Of a stretch of 34,657 bases of DNA, positions 21,823-24,405 are shown piece after piece. The notes below the pieces were generated by a model that was given only the letters and a program-made list of their open reading frames with translations, ran no database searches and was not told the origin of the DNA. The first letter of the stretch is position 1. Each line of letters starts with the position of its first letter. Source of the DNA: Hyphomicrobiales bacterium (GTDB lineage Bacteria; Pseudomonadota; Alphaproteobacteria; Rhizobiales; Beijerinckiaceae); assembly GCA_019246665.1 (NCBI GenBank), contig JAFAQA010000546.1, positions 1 to 34,657 on the forward strand, written 5' to 3'. The position numbers were made by a program, and so were the translations under genes.

Positions 21823-22560
21823 TTGGCATCTTCAGCAGAGCCCGTCAGCATCGCAGTCGATGGCGCGGTTCGCGTCTCGGCTCTTTTGCAGTCACCCTCG
21901 CGAGCGCGCGCTTGTTATGTGCTTGCGCATGGGGCGGGCGCCGGCATGACGCATCCCTTCCTTGCGGCCGTCGCCCAGGAACTCGCGGAGCGCGGCATTG
22001 CGACCCTGCGCTATCAATTCCCGTACATGGAAGTGCGCGGCAAGCGGCCCGACGCACCGAAAACTGCGCATGCGACGGTTCGGGCGGCCGTCGCCGAAGC
22101 TATGCACCGAGAACCGGCGCTTCCTCTCATCGCCGGGGGCAAGTCCTTTGGCGGACGCATGACATCGCAAGCACAAGCTGTCGCTCCGCTCCCGCACGTC
22201 CGCGGCTTGGCCTTCCTCGGTTTTCCGTTGCATCCGGCTGGACGGCCATCGCAGGAGCGCGCCCAGCATCTTTTCGACGTGACAATTCCGATGTTGTTCC
22301 TGCAAGGCACCCGCGATGCGCTCGCCGCGCCACAGGAACTCGAGCCACTTTGCGCGGCGCTCGGGCCGCGCGCAACCTTGAAGCTTTTTGAAAAAGCCGA
22401 CCACTCCTTCCGTGTCCCGGCGCGAAGCGGGCTGAAGGATGCGCAAGTGAGAGGTTACATCCTGGACGCGCTCGCCGCCTGGATCGACGGCGTGCTCACG
22501 CGCCCCGTTGGGCACCAGGCTGAAGATCTCATCCAAAAAGAACAAAAAACTGAGCCGTGA
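21823..22560 (+). CDS. Alpha/beta hydrolase of the TEX30/KANL3-like (dienelactone hydrolase-related) group
   Basis: 245-aa cytoplasmic alpha/beta hydrolase. Visible features are the oxyanion-side LAHGAGAGMTHPF, the strand IATLRYQFPYMEVRGKRPD, the nucleophile elbow GGKSFGGRM with Ser in GxSxG-like GKSFG, the acid loop FLQGTRDALA, and the catalytic His in ADHSFRVP. The start is TTG at 21823 with GGGAG 6 nt upstream; no ATG lies near. Substrate is unknown. It is 151 bp upstream of ku in the same direction and could be co-expressed. Confidence 0.8.
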   Translation: MASSAEPVSIAVDGAVRVSALLQSPSRARACYVLAHGAGAGMTHPFLAAVAQELAERGIATLRYQFPYMEVRGKRPDAPKTAHATVRAAVAEAMHREPALPLIAGGKSFGGRMTSQAQAVAPLPHVRGLAFLGFPLHPAGRPSQERAQHLFDVTIPMLFLQGTRDALAAPQELEPLCAALGPRATLKLFEKADHSFRVPARSGLKDAQVRGYILDALAAWIDGVLTRPVGHQAEDLIQKEQKTEP

Positions 22561-22711: not shown

Positions 22712-23671
22712 ATGGCGCCGAGGAGTAACTGGAAGGGATTCCTGAAGTTGTCCCTCGTGTCATGCTCGATTGCGCTCTATCCAGCCTCGAGCTCGTCCTC
22801 CCGCGTCAGGTTCAACACGCTCAATCGTCAGACGGGAAATCGGCTGAAACGTCAGTTCATCGATGCCGGCACCGGCGATGTCGTCGAGGCCGAGGATCAG
22901 ATCAAAGGCTTTCAGGTCGATCGCGACAATTACCTTGCCGTCGAGGAAAGCGATCTCGACGACATCCGGCTGGAGACGACGCACACTCTCGAGATTGAGA
23001 AGTTCGTGCCGCGCGCCGAGATCGATCCGCGTTACATGGACGTGCCTTATTACATCGCTCCGACTGAAAAAGTAGGCGAAGAGGCTTTCGCCGTCATTCG
23101 CGATTCCATGCGCGAAGAGGCCGTCGTCGGTCTTGGCCGTGTGGTCATGGCGCGGCGCGAGCGCATCATCATGCTCGAGCCCTGGGAGAAGGGCCTGCTC
23201 GGGACGATGCTTCGCTACGGGTACGAGGTGCGCAACGAGCAGCCCTATTTCGAGGAGGTGCCCGAGCTCCAGATCGATAAAGACCTGAAGGAAATGGCGA
23301 AACTGATCATCAGGCGCAAGTTTGGCCATTTCGACGCCAGCGAGTTCAACGACCGCTACGAGGACGCGGTCGTGCAAATGGTGCGCGACAAGCAGGCTGG
23401 AGCAAAGCCGAGGCCGGCAAAGAGCGCGCCGCCGGCCGGCAACGTGATCAATCTTATGGACGCCTTGAAGCGCAGCCTCGCAGCAGGCGCGCGAACGCCG
23501 GCGGAGCAGGCCCCGCCGGCGCAAAAGAAGCGCGCGAGCGCCAAGGCCGGCCAGCGCGATCAACCGCAGTTCAAGCTTCCGATCGCGGGCGGAAAATCGA
23601 AAACCTCCGTAGCGAAGGAACCTGCACGGAAGGAAACTGCGTCGAAGCCTTCGCGGAGGAAGGCATCGTGA
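22712..23671 (+). CDS. ku: Bacterial Ku protein for non-homologous end joining
   Basis: 319-aa DNA-end-binding protein of bacterial non-homologous end joining; it forms a homodimeric ring on broken DNA and recruits LigD. The family start is clear (MAPRSNWKGFLKLSLVSCSIALYP), followed by the Ku core to about residue 235 (FVPRAEIDPRYMDVPYYIAP, GLGRVVMARRERIIMLEP). The long Lys/Ala/Pro-rich C-terminal tail holds QPQFKLPIAGG at 284-294, which recurs in the next gene. The ATG at 22712 has GGAG 10 nt upstream. The stop overlaps the next start (GTGA). No LigD is in the window. I see no EcfG promoter directly upstream. Confidence 0.95.
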   Translation: MAPRSNWKGFLKLSLVSCSIALYPASSSSSRVRFNTLNRQTGNRLKRQFIDAGTGDVVEAEDQIKGFQVDRDNYLAVEESDLDDIRLETTHTLEIEKFVPRAEIDPRYMDVPYYIAPTEKVGEEAFAVIRDSMREEAVVGLGRVVMARRERIIMLEPWEKGLLGTMLRYGYEVRNEQPYFEEVPELQIDKDLKEMAKLIIRRKFGHFDASEFNDRYEDAVVQMVRDKQAGAKPRPAKSAPPAGNVINLMDALKRSLAAGARTPAEQAPPAQKKRASAKAGQRDQPQFKLPIAGGKSKTSVAKEPARKETASKPSRRKAS

Positions 23672-24405
23672 GCCGCAGCGCGACCGATCACGGCCTCATC
23701 TTGTGGATGGAGCGGGAGGGCGACATCTACTCGCCGGCGATGCGACTCAGCCAAAGCTCCGAAGAGGCGATCGAGCGTGACCTTTGGGAATGCGTTCATG
23801 CAGGGGCGTGCCACAGCATCTATCGCTATGGGACGCACGCCAATGGCGGAAGCTACTGCCGTGAGATTACCGAGGAGGTCGCGGCGCGGCTCGGGCGGCT
23901 GAGCTTGTCGATGCGCAGACCTCCCGCTGGACCGGTGCGCAGCTTTCTCGAAGCTCATGGCGTTGAGTTTTTCGCCAGCATCCCGGAACGGCTCGACCGC
24001 GATCTTCCCGCCTCTCCACCCTTCCAGATGCAAGCGCCTCAATCTGGTGGATCGGCGAAAAAAAGTGCGCGGCGGAAAAGCCGCGCGAAGCCACTCACCC
24101 CAGAAGAGCTTCGCGCTCAACCGCAGTTCAAGCTTCCCATTGCGGGGGGAAGGGACGTCGAAATTTCTCGCACGGCGAGCGGCGAAGCGCCTGTGCCTTC
24201 GCCCGGCGAGAATGACGATGCGAGCGGCATCGAGCGCGTTTCGCTACGAGACGAGAGATCTTTGGCCGATCGCAGCGCCGCGTGGAAACGCTTTGACGAA
24301 AAGCTTCGCGAAATGGGCGTGAAGGGGGCAATGCAAGCGCAGTCCGGAACTCAGCCAAACATGGGAGCAGGGGAAAAGACGCGAAGATCGGCATCCCGCT
24401 CTTAA
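23668..24405 (+). CDS. Unknown protein coupled to Ku, sharing its tail motif
   Basis: 245-aa protein whose GTG start overlaps the ku stop by 4 nt. I do not recognise a family. Residues about 1-115 look folded, with Trp, Cys and His scattered (LILWMEREG, LWECVHAGACHSIYRYG, ITEEVAARLGRL). Residues about 118-150 are a basic Ser/Lys/Arg linker. Residues 151-161 are QPQFKLPIAGG, identical to residues 284-294 of Ku. The C-terminal part is polar, with a short helix-like end (RSAAWKRFDEKLREMGVKGAM). Coupled translation and the shared motif suggest a partner in DNA-end repair, for example through binding a common protein. That is inference. Confidence 0.75.
   Translation: MSRSATDHGLILWMEREGDIYSPAMRLSQSSEEAIERDLWECVHAGACHSIYRYGTHANGGSYCREITEEVAARLGRLSLSMRRPPAGPVRSFLEAHGVEFFASIPERLDRDLPASPPFQMQAPQSGGSAKKSARRKSRAKPLTPEELRAQPQFKLPIAGGRDVEISRTASGEAPVPSPGENDDASGIERVSLRDERSLADRSAAWKRFDEKLREMGVKGAMQAQSGTQPNMGAGEKTRRSASRS

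Follow-up and report, generated by a model that had tools for sequence, protein, structure and literature searches.

An eleven-residue peptide shared by Ku and its overlapping partner gene in a Hyphomicrobiales genus, and a candidate reading as a sliding-clamp binding motif

The locus described here raises the question of why a bacterial Ku protein and the product of the gene that overlaps it should carry an identical eleven-residue peptide, QPQFKLPIAGG, and what that peptide might dock onto. Bacterial end joining is described as mainly the work of Ku and LigD, and published work on the extended tail of Ku gives it roles in binding DNA and recruiting LigD (PMC9638933). The window analysed here is the whole 34,657-nucleotide stretch of contig JAFAQA010000546.1 from a Hyphomicrobiales bacterium (GCA_019246665.1), and the features that concern us are the following:

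22712..23671, + strand: ku, 319 aa (TIGR02772, 255.1 bits, E 6.8e-76)
23561..23593, + strand: QPQFKLPIAGG in the Ku tail, residues 284-294
23561-23578, + strand: proposed clamp-binding hexapeptide QxxPhi-x-Phi in Ku, the first six residues of the motif
23668..23671, + strand: GTGA overlap of the ku stop and the partner start (ATGA or GTGA in 4/4 genus genomes)
23668..24405, + strand: partner gene, 245 aa, with no known family
23668..23982, + strand: partner N-terminal domain, residues 1-105, related to small prophage proteins
24118..24150, + strand: QPQFKLPIAGG in the partner, residues 151-161
24229..24324, + strand: conserved C-terminal block of the partner, residues 188-219 (16/32 columns invariant in 4 sequences)

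Ku, its overlapping partner and their shared peptide

The window Ku has the full core, minimal C-terminal region and basic extended tail of the known Ku/LigD systems (TIGR02772, TIGR02779), and its core scores above the curated TIGR02772 cut-off (255.1 vs 150 bits); unlike known Ku tails, its extended tail bears a conserved clamp-like motif. Comparison of the tails at the four Ku loci of the source genome places the motif in the window ku alone. The two copies of the peptide, and the partner GTG that overlaps the Ku stop, had been picked out in a sequence-only reading of the locus, and both were confirmed, the former at 23561-23593 and 24118-24150 and the latter as a GTGA beginning at 23668. 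The codons of the copies differ at three third positions (CCG/CCC, ATC/ATT, GGC/GGG), all silent, and the codons flanking the motif are also alike (36/45 bases). The peptide identity is far beyond chance: 9e-9 shared 11-mers are expected from composition, the longest word common to the two proteins in 300 shuffles had length 6, and a degenerate DNA pattern for QFKLPIAG matched the source genome twice, in this ku and in its partner. The sequence-only reading took the basic stretch ahead of each copy to be probably disordered; partner residues 106-135 and 155-194 have mostly pLDDT <50, in a poor full-length model. Near ku, at window positions 21823-22560, stands a hydrolase-like ORF, judged by eye, that contains a RACYVLAHGAGAGM stretch, and an ORF sharing this stretch is found near the ku of a genus relative, G079, in a different arrangement (L019 14720-15448, minus strand).

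Ku and partner, with the 4-nt overlap and the motif, are present in 4/4 genus genomes examined. The Ku motif reads QPQFKLPIAGG in the source genome (G000) and G106, QPQLKLPIAGG in G043 and QPQLKLPIPGG in G079, and the partner motif is QPQFKLPIAGG in three genomes and QPQFKLPIPGG in G106. The partner orthologs of the three other genomes have 54-65% identity, and across the four, 10/11 motif columns are invariant vs 7/39 and 0/26 in the linkers. Selection on the motif is supported because its columns in the partner hold across the genus genomes while the linkers diverge; the three silent changes, from which selection had originally been argued, are weak proof alone. Within each genome the ku and partner copies of the motif DNA have 26-30 of 33 bases in common, and the amino-acid changes between the two copies differ from genome to genome. 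A further likeness to known Ku/LigD systems is seen in G079, where ligD ends ~150 bases upstream of ku on the same strand, giving the order ligD-ku-partner, and where the single Ku found by the Ku search is the motif Ku. This genome also has 14 ligase-domain matches, several of them partial, despite the single Ku found. The sequence-only reading had suggested looking for the motif in LigD as well, and the four long genus LigDs (L222, L223, L224, L226) lack it. The same reading had allowed that motif and coupled gene might be lacking in related genomes; both were found in the genus, and the motif alone more widely.

The partner had been held to belong to no recognised family, and this stands against four databases: Pfam and NCBIfam gave no match at E <= 1, PADLOC none at 0.001, and PHROGs nothing better than E 0.094. 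A partner search of 298 family genomes matched seven, four of which were in the genus; the full gene was not found outside the genus in these genomes, and no partner was found in plasmids or phages. Two matches were set aside, that in G222 being a methyltransferase caught through the motif and that in G215 being weak and lacking a convincing frame. The match in G093 is a prophage ORF of 119 residues, which aligns with the N-terminal 105 residues of the partner (per-genome E 7.7e-5 in the 298-genome search; by hhalign 29% identity, E 2e-6) and clusters with RecT and a Sipho_Gp157 protein in a prophage-like setting:

G093:C5:361000-379000: prophage-like cluster (L217, also L012), with the ORF at ~G093:C5:369856-370143

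The same Gp157 protein bears the PHROGs label 'Mu Gam-like end protection', on which we do not lean. With the G093 ORF in the alignment, the partner N-domain model reached pLDDT 83 and pTM 0.76; the full-length model without it reached pLDDT 48.6, too poor for a fold search. The best viral fold match of the N-domain was a 104-residue phage protein with no assigned function (BFVD A0A6J5LCK9; E 8.7e-4, TM 0.62/0.66), and among solved structures nothing was convincing (best Z 4.5). No relatives of the G093 ORF were found in viral contigs or phages. A profile of the N-domain gave two weak matches besides the source genome among 297 order genomes; one was rejected as out of frame inside a mutS-like gene, and the other, a small ORF, neighbours a repressor-like gene and has one weak relative in plasmids, with none found in phages or viral contigs. 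The small prophage proteins (the G093 ORF and A0A6J5LCK9) show a weak likeness to the partner N-domain in sequence and fold, but at ~104-119 residues they have no room for the linker, motif and C-terminal block of the longer partner. For that block (24229-24324) no known match was found, and it may serve as a second docking element.

The element in other Ku proteins and in methyltransferase tails

The motif is not private to the Ku and partner pair, as variants of the form Q-x-[EQ]-[FLM]-x-[LM]-P-I-x-G occur in Ku tails of other genera and in the C-terminal tails of DNA methyltransferases, which are of two kinds. Family Ku tails numbered 140 (133 distinct), drawn from 128 loci among the matches listed by E-value plus 12 genus loci, where one locus can yield two tails; among these matches the element is present in nine tails, four in the genus and five in other genera, and absent from 131/140, so that Ku generally does not need it. 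The five Kus from outside the genus (G007, G048, G066, G167, G192) carry QRE[ML]LLPIAG, and no partner homolog was found in their genomes, all of which were in the 298-genome partner search. Twelve plasmid Kus were read among 30 matches listed of 693 matching records, taking only the first Ku of a pair: all seven from Bradyrhizobium end in QKEMLM[PS]I[AEG]GK[KR], and the element is absent from all five from Rhizobium, Agrobacterium and Microvirga. The tail peptides are exemplified by QPQFKLPIAGGK for the window-type Ku and QKEMLMPIAGKK for the Bradyrhizobium-type Ku. On a Bradyrhizobium japonicum plasmid (L351 3427-3762), a small gene of no known role encoding 111 aa has a start that overlaps the stop of a motif Ku by 4 nt; by eye, its product is no kin of the window partner.

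A tree of 44 Kus, which leaves out the Bradyrhizobium Kus, 95 loci taken as tails only and L026, places the nine family motif Kus in two separate clades, with starred branches that force two changes; these may also be one gain and one loss. A strict pattern covering QFKLPI only was found in 1/397 genomes across the order, the source genome itself, in a sample with few family members and no other genus member, so the exact form of the motif is rare. In viral contigs the exact degenerate pattern had no matches, and the QREPhiLLPIAG pattern had one, in a methyltransferase; the motif segment searched in phage records returned nothing. A looser pattern gave eight stretches in viral contigs, seven of them in one shared frame of related phages, all judged by eye to be chance.

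The methyltransferases came in through searches with the partner as query, by the motif alone (L011 with APQFKLPISGGR, L016 with QPQFKLPIAGGK), and L031 and L032 were picked up when plasmids were searched with the motif segment, at E-values >1, so that these two rest on the reading of their tails. Both L011 and L032 combine an N6/N4 methyltransferase with an Mrr-like domain, and L031 is an MmeI-like, type IIG enzyme (PADLOC) that L016 resembles by eye. In the methyltransferase-Mrr family, ordinary clamp-binding motifs are often found in the tail, beyond the Mrr-like domain and a stretch of basic residues, and the plain DnaN-binding motifs at this position include QKELDL, QGSLL, QPELF and QLELTF. 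In the order genomes, where some loci are fragments, a clamp motif was present in 10/10 tails read from the best 11 of 30 loci (QTKFDL, QKELDL, QGSLL, QMAFHF, QGKLL, QLELTF, QGELF, QSELDI, QGDLEL, QEELDL), the eleventh, L079, standing outside the count. Viral-contig relatives were taken from 46 of 80 loci, chosen for a match reaching query residue ~460 to 565, of which three yielded no reading frame; the other 43 gave 38 distinct tails. Qxx[LMIF](x)[LFI] occurs in the last 25 residues of 20/38 of these (2000 shuffles: mean 4.0, max 11) and in 4.5% of 727 windows taken elsewhere in these proteins; the 18/38 tails without it include L129, which bears QREMMLPIKGGK further up and was scored as a miss. 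The narrower Qxx[LM](x)[FLI] occurs in 15/38 (shuffles: mean 1.6, max 6). One of five plasmid relatives has a canonical motif (L361, QIEMIF-PFGG) and four have no Q-type motif at the end, and the three MmeI-like relatives read of 30 loci (L099, L101, L115) end before the tail, so that this family offers no position test. Because of these clamp-type endings (10/10 genome, 20/38 viral), the tails suggest that the phage, plasmid and genomic enzymes joining a methyltransferase to an Mrr-like domain (L069-L078, L129-L179) may ride on the replication clamp.

A sliding-clamp motif and its rivals

We read the shared peptide as a probable binding motif for DnaN, the beta sliding clamp, in which a QxxPhi-x-Phi hexapeptide (QPQFKL or QPQLKL), borne on a basic and probably flexible tail, runs into a P-I-x-G-[GK]-K extension specific to the lineage, and from the sequence comparisons we put this reading at a probability of about 0.6. 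The clamp is the named candidate because the same element stands in methyltransferase tails where relatives carry ordinary clamp motifs. A 2024 review of clamp motifs gives positions 4 (L/M) and 5/6 (F, L or I) as critical, the Q as helpful yet dispensable and position 2 as tolerant (PMC11139829). Among 28 aligned rows of Ku, partner and methyltransferases, which were picked for carrying the element, 25 fit Qxx[LMFI]x[FLIM], and columns 4 and 6 are hydrophobic in all. Q at position 1 is present in the window Ku and partner and in 25/28 rows overall, the three rows without it all being methyltransferases. An aliphatic residue at position 2, where the window pair has P, is found in 2/28 rows, the sole ones that agree with the strict published consensus. 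Position 4 is F in the window pair, outside the published L/M, and over the 28 rows is L/M in 18 and F in 10; it switches to L in 2/4 Ku orthologs, which we count in favour of a clamp motif since such a motif permits this change. Position 6 is L in the window pair, as the review allows, and over all rows is L/F in 21 and M in seven.

The register may also be QFKLPI, an alternative that fits 11/28 rows; it places F at position 2 in the window, would give the Kus of G043 and G079 an aliphatic residue there (QLKLPI), and resembles the QLSLPL of E. coli Hda (PMC11139829). The register QPQFKL-PIAGG is suggested by bridging members that join a hexapeptide to the xIxG element, namely QLELTF-SIAGQK, QIEMIF-PFGGEI, QREFLL-PIAGGK, QREMML-PIKGGK, APQFKL-PISGGR and SPSLRL-PISGGK. 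Known beta-clamp motifs, such as those of Hda (PAQLSLPLYL, Kd 0.38 uM; PMC11139829), Pol II/III/IV, MutL and RecB (QVEMEF), are likewise short, with a Q and hydrophobic anchors at positions 4/6, and belong to DNA-acting enzymes; the window-type element differs from them in having P, R or K at position 2 in nearly all rows, a constant P-I-x-G and Ku as a carrier. The RecB motif QVEMEF acts in E. coli break repair, so a break-repair machine can use the clamp (PMC13254535). The mismatch endonuclease NucS/EndoMS carries its clamp motif at the C-terminus, as KLRLF in Streptomyces (PMC11109965), and differs from Ku in protein family, in pathway and in the absence of the Q. Within the genus, Y-family polymerases carry QLSLL (terminal) and QLELPL in two G079 ORFs, and the last 90 residues of three DinB-like proteins show no clear clamp motif (three more lie outside the count).

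The most invariant residues lie outside the hexapeptide (G10 in 28/28 rows, I8 in 27/28, P7 in 26/28), and clamp binding gives no explanation for the constancy of P-I-x-G. The 18/38 viral tails and 4/5 plasmid relatives in which the clamp-type motif is missing, like the 131/140 family Ku tails that lack the element, also weigh against the clamp reading, whereas the fall of the motif Kus into two separate clades counts for it. That Q1 and position 2 vary more than P7, I8 and G10 do, and that the extension recurs in the unrelated Ku, partner, MmeI-like and Mrr-type methyltransferases, would fit P-I-x-G-[GK]-K as a docking motif for another DNA-associated hub protein of Hyphomicrobiales, the clamp likeness being incidental. 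We consider this unlikely, given that plain clamp motifs stand at this tail position in relatives that lack the extension and that the bridging members fuse a clamp hexapeptide to the extension.

A more local role, in which the motif makes Ku and partner bind each other or makes both bind LigD, is in our view very improbable: it draws on the overlapping genes in 4/4 genomes and on the ligD upstream in G079, but Kus carry the motif even where the genome has no detectable partner, methyltransferases not known to be linked to Ku or LigD carry it too, and the four long genus LigDs do not have it. The sequence-only reading had proposed docking either on the same partner or on each other; the former is favoured by the clamp candidate and the methyltransferase tails, if these are read correctly, and the latter finds no support, as the motif also stands in Kus of five genomes where no partner homolog was found and in the unrelated enzymes. 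It is scarcely more probable that the tail lacks a specific protein target and is a basic element, DNA-binding or of low complexity, that was copied from one neighbouring gene to the other. The Ku tails are indeed basic and variable and the flanking codons are similar too, but the partner linkers have diverged around a motif that held, the motif occurs in two separate Ku clades, and the two copies in each genome have parted at the DNA level with genome-specific amino-acid changes.

Possible consequences for end joining

If the peptide is a clamp motif, Ku and its partner would both be clamp clients made from one transcript. The two tails of a Ku homodimer would each plug into a clamp pocket, as would the partner through its single motif between the folded domain and the conserved block. 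Ku and partner would then be held at DNA carrying a loaded clamp, such as stalled forks where a break is one-ended or post-replicative, and LigD would act afterwards at the clamp-held break. The partner, with its phage-type N-domain, may share, compete for or bridge the clamp with Ku, and might hand over or block. We infer clamp binding and these later steps from the conservation, position and recurrence of the motif described above. A role for the partner as an accessory factor of end joining is plausible on the basis of the 4/4 overlapping gene pairs and the ligD-ku-partner order in G079. We suggest tentatively, as a possibility we would not yet favour, that some Hyphomicrobiales have a replication-coupled end-joining branch with Ku as one clamp client and a phage-domain protein as a second, in which two Ku lineages acquired the clamp tag independently and mobile methyltransferases share it.

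No report of end joining or Ku with the sliding clamp, or of methyltransferases with a clamp motif, was found in the literature searched, in which coverage of subscription journals is thin. If true, a clamp motif on Ku would tie end joining to loaded clamps, in other words to DNA that has been or is being replicated, and would provide a handle on what keeps Ku away from fork breaks, or directs it to them, in bacteria with multiple Kus. It would also bring with it an undescribed protein made together with Ku and a clamp-tag tail in the methyltransferases of phages and plasmids.
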